NCBI GenBank assembly: GCA_949130485.1
Contig: OX422183.1
Span: forward strand, 301,001 to 365,000
Reading direction: 5' to 3'
DNA: 64,000 nucleotides
DNA from: Agelas oroides
Lineage: Eukaryota > Porifera > Demospongiae > Agelasida > Agelasidae
In this document: positions 769 to 43,160 of the stretch, one piece after another
Numbering within the stretch: position 1 is the stretch's first letter
Layout of the letters: each line of letters opens with the position of its first letter
Program-made: the position numbers and the translations under genes
The notes under the pieces: generated by a model
The model's input: the letters and a program-made list of their open reading frames with translations, nothing else
The model's database searches: none
Told to the model about the DNA's origin: nothing

Positions 769-3700
769 TCAACACAAACAACGTACTTGTTTCCCATATG
801 GAGTGGCGATAAACTCATTGAAATGGGTGGAGTCAGTATCTGGAGGGGGGACCTTTGTCATCTCTATGTCCTCTGACATATGAACTGAGGAGGGAGGAAG
901 GAAGGAGGAAGGGAGAAGGGAGGGAGGAGAGGAGAGGAGGGAGGAGAAGAGAGAGAAGGGAGGAGAGGAGGGAGGAAGGGTGGAAGGAGGAGGAGAGGGA
1001 AAAGAGGAGAGGGAAGGGAGGAGAGGAAGGAGGGAGGGAGGGAAGAGAGGGGAGGAGGGAGGGAGGAGGGAGAGGAAGGAGAGAGGGAGAGGAGGGAGAA
1101 AGAAAGGAGATGAAGGCATGACATGAAATTGTCTAGTCATACATCCAATACCTCCATGGGGATAAGTGGGGGTTGGCCTGTACTGCGGTGGCATAGCGGG
1201 ACGCAAGGTAGGCAAGCTCTCGTAGTCAGGAGCATAAGCTTCTGCCTGTCCAAATTCCTCATCACTGTCTCGGTCCACGTTGCCACGAGCATCTGTAAAG
1301 TTTTGTCCACCATCCCTGTGGAGGATACACCACAAAATATGTTTGTTGGGACAAGCAACCTTCAGATCTGAACACTGTCTCACACAACAATTAGAGTCAT
1401 GATCCTTTCTAACATGCCACATTGACAATCATATATCTTTTCTAACATGTCATGTCGATTGGTGTTGTTGCACTTACTTGCCACTTTCAAATGTCACAAC
1501 TGTGAGGAGAGAAAACAGTCAACTTGACATCAACTCGGCACACGACAGAAGGAAGCCCTCTCCCCCCCCCCCCCCCTCCCCATCACACAAAACACACGCA
1601 AACACTCACCTCCCTCACGGCCCCGTCTGGCACAACAGTACACACACACCATCAACAAGCACACCACGGTGAGCAACAAGACACCTCCAGCACCCCCTGC
1701 CGCTATCCCAATAATCGCTGGTGTGTCTAACACAGCTGTACGTTAGAATGGTGTGGTGGGATAATGAACAACATAATTATATGGGCAGTTATAAAGTTTG
1801 TTAGCAAAAAAAAAAATCCATTTCCCATTTTACGTACATCTATGATGGGTGGGAAAGCAATATGGATGGATATTGCACATTCAAGTGTGCGGACATATTT
1901 TCACACGTTGCAGGGGAGTAGAAATACAACACGTTCAATTCAATATCAACACTGTCGCCTCACAATAATCAGAAATGATTTAGAAAAAGGTTTATTCGCT
2001 GTTTATGTAGCTGCCATGCACAAGTGCATTCCAATTAAAACATACCTATGCAGCACCCTTGTGGGCAATTAAATACAAACCTGGAAAACTATTAGTTTAG
2101 CCTCGTATCCAAGCTACATGTACCAACCAGGCTATTATCACGTTGGTCTACACTATTCTGCAAGAAACCATACAACAGTGAACTTACGTGGTGGTGGTAA
2201 GGCTGCGCAAGATGAATCCATACAACCACAAGAGAGAAACAGAAGAAGAAACATGTCAAAGTTGGTTATTGACACTCATCACTTTCAACAGATTTGCTTG
2301 CTTACGTCCCACTTCCAGTCTCACACTCCTTGTGGTCCTATTAGCAACATTGGTCACAGAGCAGGTATACACCCCCTCATCACTGCGTAGGAGGCTGGGG
2401 ATCTCCAGCTGTGACGTTTTTGTAGTACTCGCTGTACTGTTGATGACCCTCCTATCCCCCTCAAGGAGAAACACACTCCCATCCTTCTCCCAGCGGATAT
2501 CAGGATTTGGAATACCAGTAAAGGTGCATATCAGTTCAAAGCGGTCTCCCTCTGTGTGAAACATTGGTGCTGGCAGGCTCTCTATGGTGGGCTGAGCTGT
2601 AGGGAAGAGAGATATGTGTGAGCAGCTGGTGAGGGGGAAATGCTGCAACCCAGCCACTTACTGCAAAACACGAGTTCCACAGGTTGACTTCGGTTGAGCA
2701 CATTGCTCCCCATCCTAGCCTCACAGACATACTGCCCATCATCAGTCAGCCTGGCATTGGACAGCCTCACAGTGTCAAAGGACACCTGTGTAAAGCGGCT
2801 CCCTTCACCAGTGGTGATCCGCTCTGTTCCCTGATAGAAAATGATTTCTGGTCGTGGGAAACCGTAATTGGCACACTGGATGTCTACTGAAGTTCCACCC
2901 TGCAAGCAGTTAGCGTTAGGAATTCGAAGCTCAGTGATGACCACTGGAACTGCAAGAAACAAGAAACATCAGTCCAGTCAGGACTACCAGCTGTATCCCC
3001 TGTAAGCCAGTATACAGTCAGCATACCTGGTGGTGTGACAAACACCTCCTGCACATCTGCTGACCCAGCTCGGTTGGTTAGTGTTGCAGTGTATGTCCCT
3101 GTTGTTGCTGAGTTGGCAGTGATGGCAAGAGTGAAGTTGAAGGAGGTAGTCCCAGCAGATGCACTGGAGCAGGGGTTACCAATCATGTAATCCCCACCAC
3201 TAACCGCAGTTCCATTCACCCTCCATTCCACCATGTTGGGGCATGGGTCTGCGGTCACCTCTGCAAACAGTGTGACCTGCTCCCCAACATTGGGTGCTAC
3301 CAAGAGTCGCTTGTTAAGGCCACTGTCAACACTTAGAACATTAAAGGATGACATTGTCACAACAGGTGTTGCTGAGGGGGAGGGAGGCAGAGAAAGCTGG
3401 CACTATATTACATCAGTGTGTGTATGCGTGTGTGTGCTCTCACCTGCCATTCTGACCTCCAGGGCCCATGAGTACTGAGCACTGCCAACCACATTACTTG
3501 CAAAGCACTGGAACATGCCAGTGTGCCCCACTGCCAGGGGGTTGATGGTAAGACGGTTCCCATTGATTGTGATTCCATTACCTGCATTGCGCCGTGCTCC
3601 ATTGAAGTACCAGGTGACAGTAGGTGTGGGGATCCCGGCTACATTACAGGTGAAAGTGATTGAGTCTCTTGCAAACTCCTCCAGCCTGTTCTGAGGAAAT

Positions 3701-5273
3701 GGTTCTATTACTTGAGGGGGGGCTGTGTGGAGAGAGGGAGGTGTTTGTCAGGGAAGGAGGTAGTCTCATGCCCAGACTAAATTGAGTCTGGGATTATAAT
3801 AGAGACTATATTCAGGTCGATCCTTCCTACCTTGAACAGTGACGGTGGTCTGAATTGGGGTATTCTGTTGACCAGTGACAAAAGTACAGCCCACTTCAAA
3901 TGTCACACTACTGGCCACTGCAGGTATCTGCTCTCCTACTGTTGTGTCTGGTATAGGTTCAGAAATAACTCCTCCAATGTTTGGTATTTGAAGTGGTGAA
4001 ATATCTGTGTCTAGTGTGTCGCCTGATCGTCGGCAGCTGAGAAGACCCAATGCAGTAACATTACGACCACCACCAACAATGTACGATAGCTCGACGGTGT
4101 CTCCCACTAGTACTGTCCTGTCGACAAACCTCTTGTAAATCATAAACTCATTGGCACCAACATTGTTCACCAGAGCATATGTAGTGGGGCTGGTGCGAGA
4201 CTGATGGAGAAGAGCATTGGTTACCTCGCAACTGTAGGTTGTACTAACCTGTGCAGTTGTCAGCTGATTAATCAGAAGGTAGCGACCATTGTGTAGGAAA
4301 CGTAGCCTATTGTTAACTATAACCTCAGTGAGAGGTCCATTTGCATCATGCCACCTGATTATAGGAGGAGGATTAGCGTCTCTTACGAGACACTCAATTG
4401 CTACAGCTGCCTGAGTACCAGTTGTGACGTTGACATTCACTGTCGGAGGGTCATCAAAACCGTTAAAATCTGAAACAGATAGCACAACACATATGATAAC
4501 ATCATCCAGTGTGAACACATACCCCTTGCCTCTCTCAACTCACATGCATAAGAGAGAGTAGCTGTTTTGCTGCGGATGGTCCCAAATTTGTTCATGGCAG
4601 TGCAGTGGTAGGATGTTCCCGCTTGTGTGGCATCTGTATTCTCAGTGATGTTTGCAATGTGCAGAGTACCATTAGCACTCATCGTTATTCGTGAGTTTAG
4701 ACTGAGGGACACTCCATTGCGGAACCAGGCGATGGTTGGGGTAGGGACCCCTGAGGCCATACAGGTGAGGTTCACTGAGGCTCTGTTCCCAGCATCATCC
4801 CTTTCAAAGACCACCATGTCCTGGGGCTCCTCATCGAAACTTGGGGGTGTGCCAGTAACTACACGGAGAGAGAATGCAATTAACGGCCCGTTACTCCGCT
4901 GGAATGTAATTAATTACCCGCACACTTCCCACCGCCGCTGGAGAGCCCACTTGAGGGAGCCAAACCCACCCTTGTAACCATTCACTTTAGAGCCAATAAA
5001 TCTCAATAGCGCTTCGTGCTCAATAAACTCTAGTCTCGCTGGCGCGTCACACAGACGCACAAAACCCATTTTATCAACTTGTTCGACGGCACGACGACAA
5101 TGTTCGCGCGCATGCAGAAGCCTCACCAATAAAAACGTGCACACTTTCGACTTACCACCGTGTGTAGAAGCAGCTAGGTCCACGGACAGCGCCAACAGTA
5201 ACAGCGCTAGGAGTAGTGCGGTCGAGTAACGCAGCGCCCGGGGGGCGGGAACCAAGGTACAGCTCTCTGCCAT
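769..5273 (-). CDS. Ig receptor 1: single-pass membrane protein with six or seven Ig-like domains
   Basis: Eleven exons, in transcript order: 5273-5156, 4858-4544, 4469-3831, 3722-3444, 3371-3027, 2949-2662, 2596-2306, 1735-1610, 1499-1478, 1315-1152, 884-769. They join in frame to about 900 residues. Residues 1-36 are a hydrophobic signal peptide (run of Leu/Ala). Each ectodomain exon is bounded by phase-1 introns, as is usual for Ig domains. Ig-like units fall at about 40-144, 145-357 (two units in one exon), 358-450, 451-565, 566-661 and 662-758, with W and YxC motifs such as YHCTA, MFQCFA, YVCEA and YTCSV. The membrane helix is at about 765-792. The cytoplasmic tail, about 105 residues, has acidic and Tyr/Pro stretches including YESL, a YxxPhi-type sorting motif. 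The 451-565 domain lacks the usual second Cys (TYTATL). It is probably an adhesion or recognition receptor; no orthologue is recognised. The last exon is less certain because a GTACGT donor lies 13 bases before its stop. Confidence 0.85.
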
Positions 5274-5589
5274 TTACAATCCCTTACACGGAGCTTTGAT
5301 CGATGTTGTTAGAATCCACTGCTCGTACAATCTCTTACAAATTTGACACACAACTTCTCTCTCTTGACACACTTCCAGGTCTCTTCGGAACACACCGAAT
5401 AACAAAGCTGCGGGTTTTTTTTACGCCCTTCAGACCACAAACAAGCCGCAATAAATCATATTCATGACATCAAGGTTTAAATATTACCAAAGGCAATGCG
5501 CATGCGCAATTTAATTGCAAATGTTTGCCACGCCCATTACGGAAATTTCCTTTTTTGCAAAGAGAACAGTGTACCAAGCTGGTCGCATC
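5274..5589. promoter_or_regulatory. compact bidirectional promoter between the two Ig receptors
   Basis: Only 316 bp separate the two divergent start codons, so both 5' UTRs and the promoters must overlap here. At 5497-5508 there is a perfect 12-base palindrome, TGCGCATGCGCA, matching the NRF1 consensus YGCGCAYGCGCR. It lies about 80 bp from the plus-strand ATG. No TATA box is placed convincingly for either gene. The NRF1 assignment is inference from a consensus known in vertebrates and flies; the palindrome itself is seen directly. Confidence 0.65.
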
Positions 5590-26010
<20,421 letters not shown>

Positions 26011-28789: not shown

Positions 28790-31288
28790 AAATATTTACG
28801 CGCAGCAAATTATCGCCCCGATTCTGCACGGTTGCTAATTACTTTTGTACGGTGTGCTGATATCTGCAAGCGACGTGCGACTGCGGTGAAAGCTGCAAGT
28901 GAGTCAACTGCACTGTGCATGCGTACGCATTTGTGTCATCATTTTCACCGAATGCAAGCAGGTATATAAAAGTATGCACTTTTTTTTTTGCTAGAAGTGT
29001 TGGAGTGTGTTACGACTTGTTTATGAACCCAATCACTAATTTGCTTTATAGTAACTTGTGTGAACGAAAAGGTTTTTCTTAACATTTGGATTTGATGCAA
29101 CGGTAATTTCAAACAAACAAACAAACAAACAAACAAACAAACATTCAAACAAAGGCTCTGGGTTTTTTTAAGGCATTTTCTAATTCCACAAAATTGAGAT
29201 GTCTTGAAGGTGTTCTTAAGCAAGAATTCTCTGTAAAACTACACTTGGGTTACTTTTTGTGTTGCATTATCACATACAGTGCATGTGTACATTAATTTAT
29301 CATACATTTTTTATCACATACAGTGTGTACATTAATTTATCATACATGCTACCAAATAAATTCCCATGAAAGATCAAAGTGTGTACACTGGTATGCAACT
29401 GAGATGAGCGTCAATTTTGGACATGGCAAAAATATACATTTACTACAAGTCTTTAGTTGTAGTAGTTTGTGTGCAGTCACTAAAAATAAATTAGTGGAGA
29501 TACATGTACCTGCTGAACAAACTTCACAAGCCCTCCTTCCTCCCACTAAATATTTTGATTGATACATAATAACATGGGGATGATAGTCATGCCACTAAAA
29601 ATCACAAATCCCCCCCACCGAATGCCACAGTGCTAGCTAATTCATCCGTTTTCTACCTCTGCTGGACATATTCATACTAAAACATCACTATAGGAATGCA
29701 TCGATAGTGAATATGCTGCAGTGCTAGCTAATTCATATGTTTTTACTACCTAGTGCTGTGCTGGGGATAACATACCTATTATACTAAAAGCTTATAAATA
29801 TCTGGGAAGAGATACATCTCTGTTGGAAAGTTCATAAATATCAGACATAGGAATGCATTGACAGTGAATATGGCACAGTGCTAGCTAATTCATCTATTTT
29901 TACTACCTCTGCTTGGAATAACAAACACACAAAAGCTCATGGAAGAGATACATGTTCTCTCTGTGTGATCCTCTCTTGTTAACCATAGGCGTGGTGTAAG
30001 GGCATTCTCCTCTTGGTTGTGCTGGCAGGCCTACTGCACAGAGCTGCAGCTGAATGTCTCGATCAGAGCGAAAGCTGCGATGAGTGCTATGATACACTGG
30101 CAAAGTCACTTGTGAACATGTGCAACAGCAAATACAATCTCCGGAGGGTGTTCTACCCTCTGGAGATAGCATCTCCAGTATTTGTGACCGTGACGTACCA
30201 ATACAATGATAGCAGTGTCCCAAACCAAACATGGTACTGGAGTGCTGGAGTATTCTACTTCATACAGCCACTGCAAGTGTTTCAGTTCACCTCCCTGTTC
30301 TTTGGAAACCCGGCGTGGCAAAGCAGTGAATTAACCTACCAGCAGAATGTGCAAGTGCCTCCAAAGGATTCATGCATGACAGACCTAACTGAACACACAA
30401 GAAAAGAAATAGGTATGTATACATTCCAAGATGGGCATATAGAAGTAAACAATCCTGAGAAGCTGAAGCTTTAAATCGTTCATATATGACTTTAATTCCT
30501 ATGCAAGTGTGCTTGAATACGACAAGATAAATGACGTAGAAGATTGCATAGTTAATTCCAATGCCAGTAGCGTAGAGAGGGTCTGTTATCCAAGCAATAA
30601 TTATGTAGTAGGCGTGTGCAGCAAGAACAAGAAGGGGAACAATCTTCTACGTCAGTCTTCTGGTCATGTTAAAGTTATCTTGCAAAAGAACCAAACAGTT
30701 TTATGATTCATGGACAAAACACAAGTCAGATAAAAGTCGGAAGGTATGTTTTGGAGTACTGGCTGTGTTTGCAGTTTGGCTTGTTTCTCTTTCCTTCCAA
30801 ATATTGGTAATGATATTTTTTGTCTACATCCCAATCAACCACTCTATTGAGAATACACCATCTTCGTTACTCACCATCATACAAGGCATTGGTGCAGTGT
30901 TTCTCGGATTGATTGCATGGAAAGTTGTTGATCCAAGATCTAGAGGCAAGGGGGGACCTCTCTCAATCATCAGTGGTGCACTACGAAAGGCAATTAAGAA
31001 AAAGAGCCCCACATGTAAACTACAAGGTGATTCATCTTTTTATAATTAGTTAATTTAAGGTCAATTCTTTTTCGGTTTCAGTTATTTGTACTATAAATAA
31101 GCTTCTGAAGGATGTGGTCCAGTGATTGTCATCAGTACAGCTGAGGAGACCTGGTATTCGCTGAAATGTGTCCTACTCAGATGTCTAAACCTACAGGGAG
31201 ATGCAGTTCATTGATTATGCATGTTAAAAAATGACTTGTTGTCATGGAGATGAATTACAGCAATCCTAACTTCTAATTAATTAATAAA
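28790..31288 (+). pseudogene. copy A of the seven-helix gene family: broken and rearranged
   Basis: Matches the intact copy B (37.13-42.26 kb). The first non-coding exon is present, ending with a CAA|GTGAGT donor at 28898, and so is the TTAACCATAG acceptor near 29988. After that acceptor the ATG is gone and a TAA follows. The ectodomain coding region (about 30013-30400) is otherwise well kept. The GTGAGG donor that ends copy B's first coding exon is deleted. The region encoding helices 1-3 is missing. The segment 30490-30643 is the reverse complement of copy B 40962-41115, a local inversion. Helices 6-7 are still recognisable at about 30745-31000, and the C-terminal repeat tail is absent. An AATAAA at 31283-31288 matches that of copy B. 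It is probably not functional as a protein. Confidence 0.85.
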
Positions 31289-32789
31289 GTTGTATAGATC
31301 GAATGTTGTGTGTGGAATGAGAAAAGCTGCCAGAGAGCCGTCACATACTGGAGACAGTGGACACACTCTCAGGATAGATCCTGCATGGGACAGAGAACAT
31401 GGCATAACTCTAGCATCCAGCATGGGGCCAACTGTACTGCTCAAATTGATGCTACTTGTATGTAGCACAGACACTTGTCTGCTAGCTACTGCACACGCAT
31501 ACTGCATGCTTCTTATGGTCCATCTGCTGGCTATTATCCAGTTCAGTAACTACCATTCACCCCCCTCACAATTCCGTCAAGCTACCACAGACAAGTGTCT
31601 GTAGTAGATCTTTGCTTCCTAATGAAGCTTGATGGAATTGTTGAGAGGATGGTGGAATGGTGGTTACAGAGTGTAAATTCTCTTCATAGCATATAGTGAA
31701 GATGAAGCGTGACAGAATTGCTAGGGAACAATGGATGGTGATATGTTTGTGAATTCTCCTAATAGCTAGTACTTACCATTATAGTGAACCCTGAAACTGC
31801 AGTAACCACTCAGAGGTGGTTTAAGTACATGCAGGTCCAGGCTGAGGTCTTTCTCTCAATCACAATTGTTTCCATTGCCTCAAAATGGACATGCAACCTG
31901 CACCTGGGAGGATGAAATGTTGGAGAGGTATTGTTTGTGGTCTTTAATTGCTGGACTGGAGAACTCGGACCTCCCAAAAACTTGGTAGTGCTTGAGTGCA
32001 AACTGAATTAGCTGGTGGTGTACACTGCCATATGTGCATTGGCCAAGTCAAGCCAACATACAGTTAGGGACCAGTGTCACTTGTGAGCTTCATGTATAAC
32101 TACAGACAGTTTCTCATACTGTTCCAGACAGCTGGTTGTAGCTACTTCTGCCTTCTGCACTGCAGTGTCTAGGTACATCCTTTGGTGGTCATGAATGTGA
32201 GCCATCTGTTCTTCAAGATGGTTGTGAAGGGTTTCCAACACATGAGGTTAGAGCGATGGGTCGGAAGTTAATTGGAGGGGTCTTGCAATTTTTCAGCCAG
32301 CACACCTCCAGCTGTCACAGTACTGGAGACTGAGACAGAGAGCACAATCTAGCACCTACACAAGTTAACTTGAAATCTGCACTGATTTTTATATAGTTGA
32401 CACAGAATGTGTGGTTGGTTTGTACAGCAAGGAAATTTCATGAAACACCGCGTTTGCGCGTGCCCTGCAACCTCGTTTGTCACAGTCTCCAGTGACTGTG
32501 ACAGCTTTATCGTGGCGGCCTCCCTGTCATGGTGGGATGGGTAGCCTCTTTGGTGGTCATTGCCGACAGTACAACAACTACAGAGCTACAGAACACCCTC
32601 ATCAGACTTTTCATGCCAGATTGTATTGTTTTGTGTGTGTTCAGTTTTTTTGTTTGTACTAAACATGCCCTGACGGTGTTATGATTGATTGATTGATTGA
32701 TTGTTGAAAGTCGCAGAGCGTGCGCAACAAATACAGTGGTGAGGCGCATCATCCATAGATATATGACACGTTCTAGGTTGTTGTCATGT
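31289..32789. other. duplicated 3' flank and unassigned intergenic DNA
   Basis: The first 170 bases (31289-31460) are nearly identical to 42243-42411, the 3' flank of copy B, and so mark the edge of the duplicated block. From 31460 to about 32790 I see no exon, RNA or clear mobile element, apart from a short GATT repeat near 32685-32702. A stretch near 32360-32470 resembles 28640-28740 in part (AATCTGCACTG ... GAATGTGTGGT). Confidence 0.6.
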
Positions 32790-35700
32790 CAGAGGAGTAG
32801 TGTGGATGGAGCTAAAGTTAAGGGAAGGAAGGAAAGTAGCGGTGGGAGTGATATAGCTATGCTAATCCTGAGGGAGTGAGGACTGATGACACAGAAGATC
32901 AGTTTGAAGAGGTGCAGGAGGAGATAGGTAGGCTACAGGAAGAAGGATATGAGGTTGTTGTAATGGGTGACTTTAATGCACATATTGGCTTGGGTATTGA
33001 GCAACAACCAAACAGGAATGATCAGAGACTTTTGAACCGGTGAACTGATCATTTGGGAATGAACTTCCACAGTGTCAGGGGAGGTGGACTTGGGAGTGTG
33101 AGCAGTAATTGACTATATACTGTTCTCAAGGGGACTAGTTGTGGAGAAAATGCAGATTGAGGATTCAGAGGGGAGGGAGATAGGATCAGACCACAATCTC
33201 CTATGGTGTGAAGTGAGACCAGGAAACCTAGAAAAGGTGGTGTTGCAAGATCGGTACAAGTGGAGAATTGATGGGAAATGTGACTGGGAGGACCAGGATG
33301 CAGTTATGGCAGAGTTCGCAGACTGGGATGCCCAACTTGGTGAGCTGAACCAGAACCTGGAAGGAGAAGAACTAGTTGCGGCAGCATGGGAGAGTTGGAT
33401 GAAGGAGGTCATTACAGCAGCAGAAAGAGGGATAGGGAAGAAGATCAGAGAGAACTCAAAAGGTTGGTGGTCCAAAGAGATTGAAGCAGCTATCCAAGCA
33501 AGAAAAGAAGCGTGTAGGAAGGTCAGACAAGGGAAGGATGCTTAATACTAGATGAAAGGACTATAAGGATAAGAGGAAGGCTGTGAAGAAACTGTTGAGG
33601 AGGGAGAAGAAGGAGATGAAGAGAAAGACCTTGAAGAAAATTAGGGAACAGGGGAGAGCCAGCAGTAAACTATTCTGGTGAGACCTGGTTAAAAGAAAAA
33701 GGAAGAGAAGGAGCATACCAAGATTGACGAACAAGATGGGACGAGTAGTGGAAAACCAGGAGGAAGTAGTAGAGGAACTAGCCAAGCATTGGGAGGAGTT
33801 GGGACAGAATGGAGGGTAGTGAAGTACTATGGAAGAAGACAGAATGGAGGGTAGTGAAGTACTATGCAAGAAGACAGAATGGAGGGTAGTGAAGTACTAT
33901 GGAAGAAGACAGAATGGAGGGTAGTGAAGTATGGTCAGACATGTGAGATGGTGACATTTGATGAAGTGGTTGGAATCCTAAAACAGCTGAAGAGGGGTAA
34001 AGCCACTGGACCAGATGGTATTCCCAATGAGATGATGATGTATGGTGGTACAAGGATGGTTGAGACTATGGTGCAGTTGTTCAATCTTGTTGTATAGCAA
34101 GCATGTTGCCCGAAGGACTGGACGAGGAGCTACGTAGTGCCACTTTACAAGGATGGGGATCCAGAGACAGCGAGCAATTATAGAGGAATTGCTCTGGGAA
34201 GTTGTGTGGCTAAGGTGTTGGTGAAGCTGCTTTCAAGGAGGCTGGGCACATTTGCTGAAGAGGAGATCTTAACAGAGGCCCAGGGAGGATTTAGATCTGA
34301 GAGGAGGTGTGCTGACCAGATATTGATTCTGAGGAGTGTGTGTGGGCTGAAGAGGAAAGAAAAGAAGGGGATATACATGGCATTTCTGGATGTAAGCAAG
34401 GCGTACGATACAGTTTGGTGTGATTGGTTGTGGAGGAAAATGCAGCAGTATGGGGTAGAGGAGAAGTTTGTCCGCATCTGTAGAGGATTGTATAAAGGGA
34501 TTGAAGCAAGTGTGGTGTTGGAAGGGGAACAGTCAAGATGGTTTCCGGTTGAAACAGGGTTACGCCAAGGCTGCCCATTGTCACCACTGTTATACAGCAT
34601 ATACATAATGGACATGATGAAGCAGCTAGAGGAAAAGGGTTTGGGAGTGAAAATGGATGGAACTTGGTGTGGGGGTCTGATGTATGTGGATGACATTGTA
34701 CTGTTAGCGGAGACAGGTGATGAATTGCAGAAAATGCTGGATGTGGTGGGTCACTATGCACAGGAGTGGAGATTTCGTTTCAATGCACGGAAGAGCAAAA
34801 CGATGGTTGTTGGGCAAATAAAGGAGAGAGCTGGTCAATTAGCGGAGAGCAGATGGAAGAAGTGATAACATTCAAATACCTATAGGTGTTTGGCTGGATC
34901 GGAAGATGAGAGGGAATGTGCAGATGGAGAGAATGAGGGAGAAGGCTGAGGAGTGGTCAGGATAGACCGAGTGGATGAGTCGAGTTAATGGCCAGATAGA
35001 GGTAGAACGAGGAAGGTTGGTATGGGAACTTCTGGCTCGTCCAAGCCTTGAACATGCAGCAAGTGTATGGTGGACAGGAGGAAAGGTAGCCAGCAAAAGG
35101 TTAGAAGCTGTCCAGGACAGGGTTGGCAGGAAGCCACTTGGAGCAAGCAGGTCTGTGGCGGGAGTGGCACCTAGGGTGGAAGAAGCTAGAGGAAAGGAGG
35201 GAAGAGAAGAAGGTGCTTTATGGAAGGAGAGTGGAGAGGCTTGATGACAGTAGGCTGGTCAAAATGACAATTTAGAGTATGGTGTAATAAAATACTGTAA
35301 TATGATTGGTCAGTGCCTGGATTCTAAATCTCATAGAATCCTGTCTGGCTACTTAGAATCCAAGCCCAGAAGGATTGATATTCAAAAGAATATTGGTTAC
35401 ATGTAACAACTCAACAAGTATAATAACAACAAAAATTATTGTTTACATAATATGAAGAAGATGCAGGATTGTGGAAGTGTCAGCTGGCAGGGTGAGTATG
35501 ATCTGTTGTTAAGGAAGTATGGGTTGGGAGGTAGTGAGACAGGGTCAGCAAAGGAGTGGAAAGAGAGGGTTCATGAGAAAAACTGCAGGGATTGGATGGA
35601 AGAATTCAAATAGAAGGAAAAAGTAGCCTGAAGTGGTATCAGATGGTGAAGGAAGAGGCAGGATTGGAGGAGTACACAAGGTCTTTGGTAGGTCAGGAAG

Positions 35701-37129: not shown

Positions 37130-37254
37130 GCATTTGTTACGATATACGCGCAGCAAATTATCGCCCCGCTGCTTCACTGTTGCTGATTACAAACTTACCC
37201 TTGTACGGTGTGCTGGTATCTGCAACCAACGTGCGATTGCGGTGAAACCTGCAA
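37130..37254 (+). promoter_or_regulatory. probable promoter and non-coding first exon of the seven-helix gene
   Basis: The block is conserved with 28.79-28.90 kb upstream of copy A and ends in a strong CAA|GTGAGT donor at 37254. A matching acceptor (TTAACCATAG) sits immediately before the ATG at 38907, giving a 5' UTR intron of about 1.65 kb. A TATAAAA at 37322-37328 (TATATAAA at 28963 in copy A) is also conserved but lies inside that intron; it could mark an alternative start. The left edge of the exon is not determined. Confidence 0.55.
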
Positions 37255-37507
37255 GTGAGTGAACTGTCTCGTGCATGCGTACGCGTTCAGTGTGTCATAA
37301 TTTTTACCGAATGCAGCAGGTGTATAAAAGTATGCAGTGTTTTGCTTTCAGCTAGCTGAATAGAGAAGTATGAAGCTTTACAGTGAATTTTATAAGATTT
37401 GGATCAGTGTTGTTTTAAGCCGTTTTCTATAAAATTGAGATGTCTTGAAAGTGTTCTTAAGCAAGAATTTCTGTAAATTACTTGGTAGCATGTATGGGGT
37501 ATGATAA

Positions 37508-38609
37508 TCCAGGCCCGTAGGCAGGGGGGGTTCGAGGGGGGTTCGCTCGAACCCCCCTTTTGACCTCCAAAAGATTTCTATGTACCGCTAATAACTGTAC
37601 ATTTTAAATGTCCTACCGCGTCTGAAAGTAGTCCACTAGTCTCGCTGCTATTGAGAATCACCGCTGTCTAAACGAGTCTGGTTGCAGCTATGCGAGTTTG
37701 TTCATGGAGGACCAGCGCTGAACGTGTGCGTAAGCTGTTTACGCCGCTGCGATGAAAGGAATGGCTCCTTTTTTCCGCTAATACCGGAGGGATGCGCCCA
37801 ATTGCAACTGTGGTCTACAAACGGATTGCCACCCTCATTGCAGAGAAACGCGACCACAGCAGAACTCTATTTTGGATTCGCTGCAAACTCAGCTTCTCAC
37901 TACTGCGCTCTGCCATTATGTGCATCAGAGTATCAAAGTCCTCATACCATCACTGGGCCCAGCTGCATGGTATGATTGGGGAAGCCATTGACCTCACCTG
38001 CTCGGAGGGTAGAATCGTGTCCTCGCAACAGACATTCTGTAATTGTAACTTTCAGCCTCTCGTTGTTAATTTTCTTACATCATTTATGCGTGTCCAATTT
38101 CCTGCTCTCCCTAGAAAGTACGCGCGCGTAAATACGCGCGTAAATAAATCGCTAGTTCAGGCGCTCGGGAGTTGTCTTTCTAGTGATGTCACCACACCTG
38201 CTGTTCTGCCAACCTCAGTACCTTCTCTCGTGGAAATTCGAAGTCAGCTGGCTTAGCAAATGCATACATGGACAGCCAAAATCGGATGCAATACTCCACG
38301 AGCCCACAGAGAGTATACACTCAAGCGAGTAACTCCCACAGAGCTAATTGCTAAAGAATGAACAGCCTTCTCCAATGCAACTCAGGCAACCACACCTTTG
38401 TTATTTTAACCAAAACATACAGCTGCTATGGCTCTGCTTCTGCCCCAAAATGGCCTCAGAAGCAATCTCAGAGCATCTCTAGCTAATTTCTAAAAAAATT
38501 TCCTGGGGGAGCATGCCCCCAGACCCCCCTAGTCGTAATTGCATGCTTATGCATGCATACATACAAATCAGACATCCATGTAACCCCCCTTCTAAAGATC
38601 CTGGCTATG
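37508..38609. mobile_element. insertion (hAT-like ends) in the 5' UTR intron of copy B, with an ancient coding fragment
   Basis: Comparison with copy A shows this stretch is extra: copy A runs from the CATACATGCTACC region to ACAAACTTCACAAGCCCTCC without it. It starts CAGGCCCGTAGGCAGGGGG and ends near CCTGGCTATGG, suggesting hAT-like termini with a worn right end. Around 37794-37960 a frame reads YKRIATLIAEKR ... CKLSFSLLRSAIMCIR, a block I recall from invertebrate mobile-element polyproteins. A related, frameshifted version lies at 48.29-48.42 kb. The exact element class is uncertain. Confidence 0.6.
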
Positions 38610-38906
38610 GAACAAACTTCACAAGCCCTCCTTACTTCCACTAAATATTTTCATCAATACGTAATAAGATGAGGATGATAGTCATGCCACAATAAATCCC
38701 CCCAAATGCCACAGTGCTAGCTATTTTTCTACCTAGCTCTGCTGGACATATTCACACTAAAAGATCACAACAGGAATGCGAATACGCTGAGGTCCTAACT
38801 ATTTTTACTACCTATAGTGCTGTTCTGGGGATAACATACATACTAAAAGCTCATGATTATCTGGGAAGAGATACACGTTCTGTGGTCCTCTCTTGTTAAC
38901 CATAGG

Positions 38907-41708
38907 ATGGCATCAAGGTCATGGTGTGTGGTCATTCTCTTGGTTGTGCTGGCAGGCCTACTGCACGGAGCAGTAGCAGAATGTCTCGATCAAAGCGAAA
39001 GCTGTGATGAGTGCTATGATACACTCGCAAAGTCACTTGTGAACATGCGCAACAACAAATACAATCTCCGGAGGGTGTTCTACCCTCTGGAGATAGCATC
39101 TCCAGTTTTTGTGACCGTGACATACCAATACAATGATAGCAGTGTCCCAAACCAAACATGGTACTGGAGTGCTGGAGTATTCTACTTTCTACAGCCACTG
39201 GAAGTGTTTCAGTTCACCTCCCTGTTCTTTGGAAACCCAGCATGGCGAAGCAGTGAATTAACCCTAACCCTACCAGCAGAATGTGCAAGAGCCTCCGAAG
39301 AATTCATGACAGAACTAACTGAACAGGTGAGGACCACACAAGAAAAGAAATAGGTATGTACATTCCAAGATGGGCATATAGAAATAAACAATCCTGAGAA
39401 GCTGCATGAAGAAGCTGAGAACACTGCTTTACAAAAGACAGTGCACAAAGCAAACATACTTTCAAGTACTGTCTATGCATGAGGAGCACATGCAGTGCAG
39501 GTTATAGCTAATGGAAGTAAACAATTTCACCTTTTCAATGTTACCAAGCACTTTATATATACCCATGCATGAAAACGACTCTGAATATGAGGCTACACTC
39601 AAGAGGCTACAGTGTGCCTGTGATATCACACACTCATGTAGGAGGCTACAGTGTACTTCAGGAGGAATGGAAGTATGCAAGCAATGAAGTTGCATTGGAT
39701 GAAAGTACTTAGTGGAGCTTTAGGAAGAGAAATGAGGAAAGCAAGTATTGTAATCTCCAAAAATAAGTCCATCTTTCCCATAGTTGTTTACACTATATTA
39801 ATTGGTTACTACAACTGTGTGACTGTTCTTCCTACGTTAATTCAAGAAACATTGTAAAACATTTAGTAGGAGGCTATAGTAAGGTTTACTCAAGTATCAC
39901 CTCCCACTCACGCAACTGTAGTAGTGAAGTGAAGTGAAACTTTAATGGCCATTCAGCCAGAGGCTGTTCTTAGCAAATTGTTTGCTAAAAATAATAACAA
40001 CTTTGTTTTTGCTGTTATGTTAAACACTTGAAAGCATTTGTGAGGAGCTCAGTATACAATAGATGTGGCACTAACAAATGAAGGCATCATCATTCACTGC
40101 TATTGAGTACAGGCCATACAAAACCATGCATACCCAGCTGATGAGGCCAAATGTGTCCTGCACTGTGGGTGACTTTGCTTTACAGCTAGGCCTGCATGCC
40201 TTTTTCACTGAATGTTAAGTTATTGTGTGTGGTCATGAATTTATGTGTGTGTAAGTACTGTGTTATTTCCTGTTGTGCGGGTATAAAATGATATATGTTA
40301 TTTCCTCTATTTTCAGCTCAAACTTTACGCCTCTCAGCTCAATCCCAAACCTTCAATTGACAACGCTTACAAAGCCAAGGGCTTTAATCTGATCACCCTT
40401 AGACGTGACTTGTACACCGGCTCAACCTTTAATGATGCACACCGCCTAAACCTGCTATACTGCTTCCAGTTCTTATTCCCCCTTTTTGCTGCTGTCCTTA
40501 TTGTGATGTACACAGTCTCCTGGTGGTCAATGAACAAGTCTGTTGCTGAGGAACATTCTAAAGACACAGACAGCTGGGCAATCATTATTGCTCATGCTAT
40601 CATAAGTTTAACATTCCTAGTGTACGTCTTTGCACTGGACATTGCTGCTCTGAAATTTCGAGATCCTACACCAGCATACCATAATGCAAACTACAGTGGA
40701 CTGCTATATCATTACCCTGGAAGTGTTCTTTTCTGGGACATACTTGCTTTATTAATAATAGCAATACTGATAATCATAGCATTGGTATTGTGTTATCGTG
40801 AAAACAGGCCCAGGAAAAGAGAAGCGTCCCAGAATGAATCCGTCCAGAGAGAAGCGTCCCAGAATGAATCCGCCCAGAATGAATCCCCCCAGAATAAATC
40901 CGCCCAGAATGAATCCCCCAAGGTAGCAACAGCCACTTTCCCGCTCCTGAAACTTGCTGGAATTGTTCCCCTTCTTTCTCTTGCTGCACACGCCCACTAC
41001 ATAATTATCGCTTGGATAACAGACCCTCTCTATGCTTCTGGCATTGGAATTAACTATGCAATCTTCTACGTCATTTATCTTGTCGTATTCAAGCACACTT
41101 GCATAGGAATTAAAGAGATAAAGGATTTATCAAGTCTGAAAAACCTTAAGCCAAATGTCCGGAAAATAGTGCTTTGTTGCATCGCAGTATCGCTTATGGT
41201 TATAGCTTGGCTTATTTCTGTCTCCCTGCAAATATTGCGATCAGCGTTTTTCGTCTACATCCCAATCAACAACTCTATTGAGGATACACCATCTACGTTA
41301 CTCACAATCATACAAGGTGTCACTGCAGTGTTTCTTGGCTTGATTGCATGGAAAGTGATTGTTAATCCAAGTGGCAAGGGACTTCTGTCAATCATCAGTG
41401 GCGCACTACGAAAGGCATTTAAGAAAAAGAACCACGAATGTGAACTACACAGTGATTCAGAGTGGGATGGATTTGACGATGAAGAAAAACTTGCTGAAGT
41501 CCTGCATCATGTTATTAAAATTAATGATGCACCAAACGCTGACCAAAGCCAGGGCAACCAAAGCCAGGGCAACCAAAGCCAGGGCAACCAAAGCCAGGGC
41601 AACCAAAACCAGAGCAACCAAAGCCAGGGCAACCAAAACCAGAGCAACCAAAGCCAGGGCAACCAAAGCCAGGGCAACGACAGCCAACCACCACCACAAG
41701 GGCAGTAG
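38907..41708 (+). CDS. seven-helix membrane protein of an unrecognised family (copy B)
   Basis: Two coding exons, 38907-39326 and 40317-41708, joined by a phase-0 GT-AG intron, give 603 residues. Residues 1-24 are a signal peptide ending AVA|E. The ectodomain (25-186) has Cys26, Cys33, Cys36 and Cys126 and Asn glycosylation sites (NDS, NQT). Predicted helices: 187-209, 227-252, 275-300, 349-373, 383-405, 423-446, 465-488. Basic residues cluster on the loops that would face the cytosol, consistent with an outside N-terminus. The loop after helix 3 has repeated QNES units, and the tail ends in about ten NQSQG-type units. The layout (signal peptide, ectodomain, seven helices) is receptor-like, but no GPCR motif (DRY, NPxxY) is evident and I do not recognise the family. 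The start is set by the acceptor just before the ATG. A sister copy at 29-31 kb is a pseudogene. Confidence 0.8.
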
Positions 41709-42236
41709 TTAGTTAGTAGCTAGTAGTTGTAGACTAGGCAACAGTGTTGTTTTAGTTACTGCAGTAGGCTTGTTGCCAATTTAGTCAGTTTATAGTTAGA
41801 TGGTTAAGCCCAAATCTTTTAAATTTAGTTATAGTGAGTGATAAAACTTATTGTTTTAGTTACTGGTTTTCTATTTTAGTTTCAGTTTTAGTTATTTTGG
41901 ATCTAAGAATTTAGTATTAGTTTGTTTGTTTTTTTTGGTTATCGTATTTGTAGTGAATATATTGCATCTAAACATTGGTTTTTCTGCATTTTACAAATTA
42001 ATACAAATACTGCTCTGAATTGTTCCCAGAATGACACCTTTCATGTCTGGGAACAAAACTAACTTCATCTTTTTAGTTCAAGATCAATTTATAGTTATTT
42101 GGAGGTAAATTTCAGCAATATTGCTAAACTTTCGGCAGAGTAACCAACGGCAAGGACATGGTCCATTGATTGTGCATGCTAAAAAAGACTTGTTGTCATG
42201 GAGATGAATTACAGCAATCCTAACTTCTAATTAATT

Positions 42237-42242
42237 AATAAA
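42237..42242 (+). terminator. polyadenylation signal of the seven-helix gene
   Basis: AATAAA about 530 bases after the stop codon at 41708, at the end of an A/T-rich 3' UTR. The same signal in the same context sits at 31283-31288 in copy A. Confidence 0.65.
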
Positions 42243-43160
42243 GTTGTATAGATCGAATGTTGTGTGTGGAATGAGAAAGGTTGCCAGAGAGCCGTCACAT
42301 ACTGGAGACAGTGGACACACTCTCAGGATAGATCCTGCGTGGGACAGAGAACATGGCATAACTCTAGCATCCAGCATGGGGCCAACTGTACTGCTCAAAT
42401 TGATGCTACTGATTCATTCCACTTCAACAAAAATTTTGCCTATATAGCATTTTCAGGATGGTAGAAAATGACACTATTTTTGAATTCTTCCTGTAATATT
42501 ATACTATAGAGATGAAACAGGGCACGCTAAATTTCCCTATAGCAATACAGGGATGAAATTATCTCAGGTCTAGCTGCCCTGCTGATAGTTTTATCAACAG
42601 TGAATGCTTCCAACATTCCAGGAAGTGTGATCGCATCTTCCTCAACTCGACTTTAGCTCCATTCGACACATGAACGGATAAGGCCACATTTCCATCTGGT
42701 ATAAATCCAGTGTAGTGACTGTCAACCAATGCTTTGGAAAATAAAGATGTTATGAAGCGAAAGTAGAGGAAAGTGAAAAGGCTGGCAGCCACCGGCCTTT
42801 TCACTTTCCTCTCGTTTCGCCTCATAACATCTAAATTCTATTAATGCTTTCTCTCTTCATCAAAGTGTAATTTGGTCACATATGTTCTCCACAGTCAGAC
42901 TGTCCATAACGTTCAATCTGCAGCAGCATACTGTAAACAAAACAGCTAGGATTTGTTACTTAACAACCTATTGTTCTGGTTATCCATGTTCAAATTTTGG
43001 TTGCTAAGCAACAGACCAACACCTAATACATGTAGCTGGCTATGCTTCTATCTGACTGTACACTGCCAAGTAATCAACAGTCTTGCCTCAATTCAAATGG
43101 TAAACTAAATTACTTATGATATAATGCTGACATTACCTGCGATGTGTATAGACATACATA
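42243..43160. other. duplicated flank, then spacer with a small fold-back SINE fragment
   Basis: 42243-42411 duplicates 31289-31460. At 42745-42838 a compact palindrome (GATGTTATGAAGCG ... CGCCTCATAACATC) carries the GGCAGCCACCGG and GGAAAGTGAAAA end motifs of the tRNA-derived fold-back element at 6.84-7.08 kb, with its tRNA-like centre missing. No gene is seen between 42.84 and 43.16 kb. Confidence 0.65.

Follow-up and report, generated by a model that had tools for sequence, protein, structure and literature searches.

A two-exon gene for a predicted seven-helix protein

What kind of protein is encoded by a sponge gene that has the layout of a receptor and lacks the motifs of the known receptor classes? 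We addressed this question in the window, the whole 64,000-nucleotide stretch of DNA analyzed here (C1:301001-365000), which belongs to a genome of 259 Mb in 141 contigs. When spliced, window positions 38907-39326 and 40317-41708 of the plus strand read as a two-exon gene for 603 residues, with the putative splice sites placed from the reading frame and from relatives. The gene is open and apparently an intact member of a family. Its features, in window coordinates, are as follows.

38907..39326, +, exon 1 (140 codons): signal peptide, then Cys-containing ectodomain; ends in CAG, followed by GTGAGG; close paralogs share the start position
38907-38978, +, signal peptide (residues 1-24), within exon 1
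39327..40316, +, phase 0 intron at the boundary of ectodomain and helix block (GTGAGG...TTTCAG); relatives have a matching junction
40317..41708, +, exon 2: LKLYA linker, seven helices, and tail, 463 codons plus stop (coding 40317-41705, stop 41706-41708)
40452..40523, +, TM1 (residues 186-209), by hydropathy
40575..40649, +, TM2 (residues 227-251), contains D248 (15/15 models)
40722..40796, +, TM3 (residues 276-300), contains D281 (15/15 models)
40818..40920, +, QNES repeat, a 15-base minisatellite in ICL2; relatives lack it
40953..41021, +, TM4 (residues 353-375), the most conserved helix; P358 and H365 in 15/15 models
41040..41108, +, TM5 (residues 382-404)
41166..41240, +, TM6 (residues 424-448)
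41292..41366, +, TM7 (residues 466-490)
41542..41686, +, NQSQG repeat, a 15-base minisatellite in the cytoplasmic tail

The ectodomain spans residues 25-140 (about 116 residues), with Cys at positions 26, 33, 36, and 126, and is followed by a linker of 45 residues (141-185), the seven hydrophobic segments, and the tail. Hydropathy analysis of the window protein detected the signal peptide and seven further hydrophobic segments. For comparison, 15 full models of family members were kept, chosen for completeness. With one threshold, eight segments (signal peptide plus seven) were found in 10/15 models; three models gave seven, with TM5 below the threshold, and one each gave nine and ten, with the extra segments in the ectodomain or tail. 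Since the counts vary among models, the number seven leans on the alignment as well. Taken together with this alignment and with relatives of the same layout, these results confirm the sequence-only reading, which had described a seven-helix protein with a signal peptide and a Cys-containing ectodomain.

That reading had also placed the N-terminus outside on the basis of charge. Averaged across 15 aligned exon-2 proteins, net charge was +2.2 for ICL1, +1.5 for ICL2, 0.0 for ECL1, -0.9 for ECL2, and -1.3 for ECL3, a pattern that fits a predicted outside N-terminus. The exceptions are ICL3, whose mean of -1.7 is contrary to the charge rule, and the window protein's own ICL1 (2 K/R versus 4 D/E). 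A structure model from the single sequence was poor (pLDDT 49.5, pTM 0.35), with helices at the expected places. Foldseek searches with it gave 17 matches at E <= 10, none at E <= 0.001, and no GPCR, as expected given the quality of the model.

A rearranged neighbor copy in the window

Repeats link 28.8-31.5 kb with 37.1-42.4 kb of the window, indicating a genuine local duplication. The interval 37130-42260 corresponds approximately to the duplicated unit, of which the gene occupies only 38907-41708. The other copy consists of the following parts.

28794..28985, +, 5' flank of the duplication, matching 37142-37343 at 83% identity
29986..30402, +, broken copy, region resembling exon 1; start lost, frame shift close to its end
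30480..30643, -, inverted 164-base TM4-TM5 piece of the broken copy
30639..31040, +, broken copy, remnant resembling TM5 to tail
31194..31456, +, 3' flank of the duplication, matching 42151-42410 at 96% identity

A stop codon sits at the position of the gene's start, and no TM1-TM3 match was found beside the TM5-to-tail remnant. Because of the lost start, the frame shift, the missing TM1-TM3, and the inverted piece, the neighbor copy at 30 kb is rearranged and broken. A reverse transcriptase frame (window 34098-34862, plus strand; RVT_1, E 2.7e-37) separates it from the intact gene and may have helped its rearrangement. Parts of interspersed repeats were observed upstream of the gene at window 38114-38305 and 38421-38600, with at least 82 matches for 38000-38600. 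At the left end of the window, Ig-domain exons (I-set, Ig_3) on both strands of 2259-6620 indicate at least one gene of the Ig superfamily.

The QNES loop and NQSQG tail had been singled out earlier as unusual features. Both turned out to be 15-base tandem repeats private to the window copy and absent as a family trait. The tail repeats differ among relatives, being Gln-rich, PMQATL, or QEQPP in some and absent in others, and such stretches look like slippery low-complexity spacers rather than part of the functional core.

Relatives across the genome

A search with the window ectodomain gave 29 matches and at least 25 core loci, the window gene and its broken neighbor included. These loci are both clustered and dispersed (three on C1, five on C2, three on C3, four on C9, one on C11, eight on C16, and one on C18), and two contain stops within the match (C1:330986 and C16:650769). 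Searches with two other members (L034 and L036) recovered mostly the same core loci, and one of them added two loci on C10. At least seven loci (two each on C10, C2, and C18, one on C5) form a sister branch. Four weaker matches (C6, C3 twice, and C23; E 6e-5 to 4e-4) may extend this branch; the only one read, on C6, has an ectodomain frame followed by a frame with LKAYA and eight hydrophobic segments. All counts are lower bounds, giving a total of at least 36 (25 core, 7 sister branch, and 4 weak); two weak helix-block matches (C8 and C10) and 11 matches at nine places (E 1e-5 to 8e-4), mostly over a charged repeat of the query L037, were left out. The suggestion that the locus was duplicated locally, perhaps more than twice, is thus borne out, with the second local copy broken.

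The ectodomain and helix block lie on separate exons in 15/15 full models. Among 20 core loci fetched, exon 2 starts with L-K-(L/I)-Y-(A/S) after CAG in 16, in a search whose pattern itself required a Gln codon before this motif; the start was not seen in L021, L032, L033, and L035. A donor was found at the matching place in 18/20 core loci, 11 of them in a first scan limited to codon boundaries, which makes phase 0 there true by construction. A second scan that allowed all phases detected a phase-0 donor after LTQR or a similar motif in 7/8 loci; none was found in L032, and L021, which is split across frames, lay outside the scans. The helix exon ends early in L019 (231 residues) and L025 (180 residues). 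The 15 full models share the ectodomain exon, the LK(L/I)Y(A/S) start, seven helices, and D248/D281/H365/D376, a feature set that defines the core family and is itself a description of these models chosen for completeness.

All four sister-branch members read (L039, L051, L052, and L053) have a helix frame with seven hydrophobic segments. Comparison of core and sister-branch profiles gave a probability of 98.1 (E 7e-14, score 88.5) for the ectodomain and 93.8 (E 1.8e-7 across TM2-TM5, score 61.0) for the helices. In 30 block-shuffled controls, the top score was at most 32.2 (ectodomain) and 27.2 (helices), and reversed alignments scored 13.3 and 34.3, respectively. These profile comparisons support joining the two branches. 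The layout persists among relatives whose helix blocks are 18-44% identical and whose ectodomains are 32-73% identical. This shared layout, together with pooled dN/dS values below 1 in ectodomain and helices, goes beyond chance. In the tree of the 15 full models, a split into 5 and 10 had a support of 100/100, and the gene closest to the window gene was L027 (51% identity over 533 columns), followed by C9/C16 genes.

Several further observations were made at these loci. Three near-identical copies, L029-L031 (C2:16.14, 16.29, and 16.51 Mb), are spaced by 150-220 kb; their dS values (0 in the ectodomain, 0.03-0.08 in the helix exon) point to recent duplications. L039 (C10:2566123-2566794) and C10:2570526-2571197 lie in opposite orientation with ectodomain frames 100% identical over 224 residues, reflecting either a recent duplication with inversion or an artifact of assembly. 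By eye, the tail of one family member carries several ~50-residue repeats (KQLMKAFVENF...GKVLGRLAFTI; L034:4130-5872, minus strand), and another adjoins a kinase-like frame with coiled-coil-like repeats (L026:4055-6430, minus strand). On C4, a cysteine-protease-like exon reads GASYAF, with Ser in place of the cathepsin Cys, a mark of silicatein that makes it very likely that the animal is a demosponge.

Comparison with profile collections

At the cut-off, no Pfam profile matched the window protein, enzyme and transporter profiles included. No Pfam GPCR model was detected at E 0.01 among 14 members, nor up to E 10 for the window protein, and no GRAFS 7tm Pfam profile matched the family. These results support the earlier observation that motifs of known GPCR classes are lacking. 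The 14 helix blocks matched seven Pfam models at E 5e-4 to 9e-3, each in 1/14 members, with cut-offs given for the first member only; four sister-branch helix blocks matched two models at about E 0.001, each in 1/4. Sixteen ectodomains gave two Pfam matches (E 0.085 and 0.097), with no GOLD model among the matches at E 0.1. In NCBIfam, two models were matched, the best at E 0.0012 and 18.9 bits, where the cut-off is 80. No Pfam or NCBIfam model was common to more than one of the 14 members. Searches of the PDB gave a best E of 0.77 with the window helix block and 0.33 with A4, and nothing up to E 10 with A1 and A2. We read all these scattered matches as chance. A citrate transporter was considered and rejected: CitMHS (E 5e-4) matched the window protein only, at 19.7 bits versus a cut-off of 31.9. 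A CREST-type hydrolase was rejected as well; such hydrolases carry several conserved His, and just one His is invariant in the 15 models.

The sequence-only reading had suggested a comparison with TMEM145/GPR180. In this genome, the GPR180/TMEM145 profile (PF10192) matched three places (two on C14, one on C7) and no family locus, and it was absent from the Pfam matches of the window protein. GOST_TM (PF06814) matched six places, all within 8.83-8.85 Mb of C10, and likewise no family locus. Against the first part of the GPR180-like protein encoded in this genome, hhalign gave a probability of 0.1 for both the helix block and the ectodomain. By sequence, this lead therefore found no support. In the viral and prokaryote collections, a weak test, single short A1 or A2 patterns matched 11, 66, and 7 stretches, and tblastn detected no relatives. 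Literature searches, weak because the motifs are not text-searchable, found no title or abstract describing this family. Similar uncharacterized proteins are presumably present in other sponges and cnidarians.

Pattern of constraint

A column was called near-invariant when it was the same in at least 13/15 full models. Such columns were frequent in the ectodomain (30/116), TM4 (9/23), and ECL2 (2/6), amounted to 7/45 in the linker, and were absent from ICL1, ICL2, and ICL3 and likewise from ECL1 (0/24) and TM6 (0/25). Six residues, D248, D281, H365, D376, P358, and P456, were invariant in 15/15. Measured from the outer face by the drawn helix limits, D248, D281, and H365 lie at fractional depths of 0.12, 0.21, and 0.45, and D376 lies in ECL2. 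The window protein deviates in TM4 at Ser361 (Cys in 14/15) and Ala364 (Ser in 13/15). Among the sister-branch members read, three of four have the TM4 His (L039 has Gln), one of four has the TM2 Asp (the others have Asn), and none has the ECL2 Asp.

Pooled dN/dS was estimated by the Nei-Gojobori method from non-independent pairs, without a significance test and with uncertain loop alignments. In a set of four C9/C16 genes, the values were 0.13 for the ectodomain, 0.14 for TM4 plus ECL2, 0.29 for all TMs (0.107/0.368), 0.79 for the ICLs (0.303/0.385), and 0.84 for ECL1. For the window gene against five relatives, with dS partly saturated, they were 0.28 for the ectodomain, 0.32 for TM4 plus ECL2, 0.51 for the helices, 0.52 for the ICLs, and 1.16 for TM7. 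Gene conversion is not favored as the source of the conserved ectodomain, whose dS (0.307) was close to that of the helices (0.368). Overall, conservation is highest in the ectodomain, TM4, and ECL2, and the intracellular loops drift. The locus had been likened to a diversifying receptor family; the expansion stands, but the ectodomain is the most conserved part and the intracellular loops are the least.

A candidate orphan surface receptor

We favor the reading, with a probability of about 0.5, that the gene belongs to an expanded seven-helix family of orphan surface receptors with a shared outside ligand and diversified insides. The signal peptide would take the protein into the secretory pathway, toward a presumed location at the cell surface, where the Cys-containing ectodomain, possibly held by disulfides, would stand above the outer mouth of the helix bundle. 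An extracellular ligand, much alike across the core family, may be bound jointly by the ectodomain and by an acidic site on the outer side (D248, D281, and D376 with H365). Binding would move TM4 and its neighbors and relay inward, and the copy-specific loops and tail would couple to different partners inside. This reading fits best because of the conserved ectodomain, TM4, and ECL2, the drifting ICLs, the signal peptide, the seven helices, and the burst of copies, and it is supported by the invariant three Asp and one His toward the outer face. It is weakened by the absence of a known signaling domain among the features found in the tail and by the drift of the cytoplasmic face, which GPCRs usually conserve. 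Receptors for varied ligands usually vary on the outside, whereas this ectodomain does not. Outer conservation is also uneven, as ECL1 shows in both measures, and in the comparison of the window gene with five relatives the helices are no more constrained than the ICLs and TM7 exceeds 1. The loss of the acidic site in the sister branch and the CitMHS match, though under its cut-off, weaken it further.

A carrier, transporter, or channel would suit the same pattern. In a GOST-like cargo carrier, the ectodomain and an outward-open cavity of the helix bundle would hold a lipidated or membrane-bound client, as in Wntless, without an inward signal. The order of parts is identical, a carrier could show a conserved ectodomain with free intracellular loops, and G-protein signaling is described as unproven for GOST proteins in two reports (PMC9711517, PMC12716839). 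This reading is nevertheless unlikely, given that the GOST_TM and GPR180-TMEM145_TM profiles match other loci, that hhalign found next to no similarity, and that at least 25 core loci are, in our judgment, many for a carrier. The invariant acidic and His residues could instead coordinate a metal or move an ion in a membrane enzyme, transporter, or ion channel. We regard this as rather improbable, since weak profile matches occur in single members only and the sister branch mostly loses these residues yet keeps the architecture.

It is quite unlikely that the family is a sponge branch of the published Hi-GOLD receptors. That seven-helix group is reported to have an N-terminal GOLD domain directly before the helices and homologs in sponges and cnidarians (PMC12716839); the ectodomain here looks mixed helix/strand by eye, not all-beta, and the 16 ectodomains matched no GOLD model.

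The orphan receptor reading can be widened to a deep and as yet undescribed receptor class at the cell surface of early-branching animals, with seven helices, one ectodomain exon and one helix exon, that would bind a shared ligand via the outer acidic site without the usual G-protein face; this we put forward only tentatively, as possible and on balance doubtful. The family is large and so far unnamed, and it probably serves to sense or bind something in the extracellular space. Sponges sense and respond without neurons, and a large family whose ectodomain is conserved and whose inside varies offers candidates through which sponges might sense, recognize self, or recognize microbes.

Relation to known systems

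The GRAFS and cAMP-like receptors of the sponge Amphimedon were identified through Pfam (PMC4302439); a list made in this way would overlook families lacking a Pfam model. Those receptors resemble the present family in having seven helices and sponge-specific groups; they differ in being Pfam-detectable, whereas the family described here matches no Pfam GPCR model. The Hi-GOLD group, compared by its published description only (PMC12716839), shares an N-terminal domain directly before the seven-helix block, a place outside the older named classes, and a reported occurrence in sponges; it differs in the GOLD domain that the paper describes, for which the ectodomains here gave no Pfam match at E 0.1. 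GOST proteins (GPR180/TMEM145, GPR107/108, TMEM87, and Wntless) likewise have an ectodomain followed by seven helices, an outside N-terminus, and doubtful G-protein coupling, but the family has no profile similarity to them. In TMEM87A, a seven-stranded beta-sandwich is joined to the first helix by a 10-residue loop (PMC9711517), in contrast to the 116-residue exon-1 ectodomain and 45-residue linker found here.
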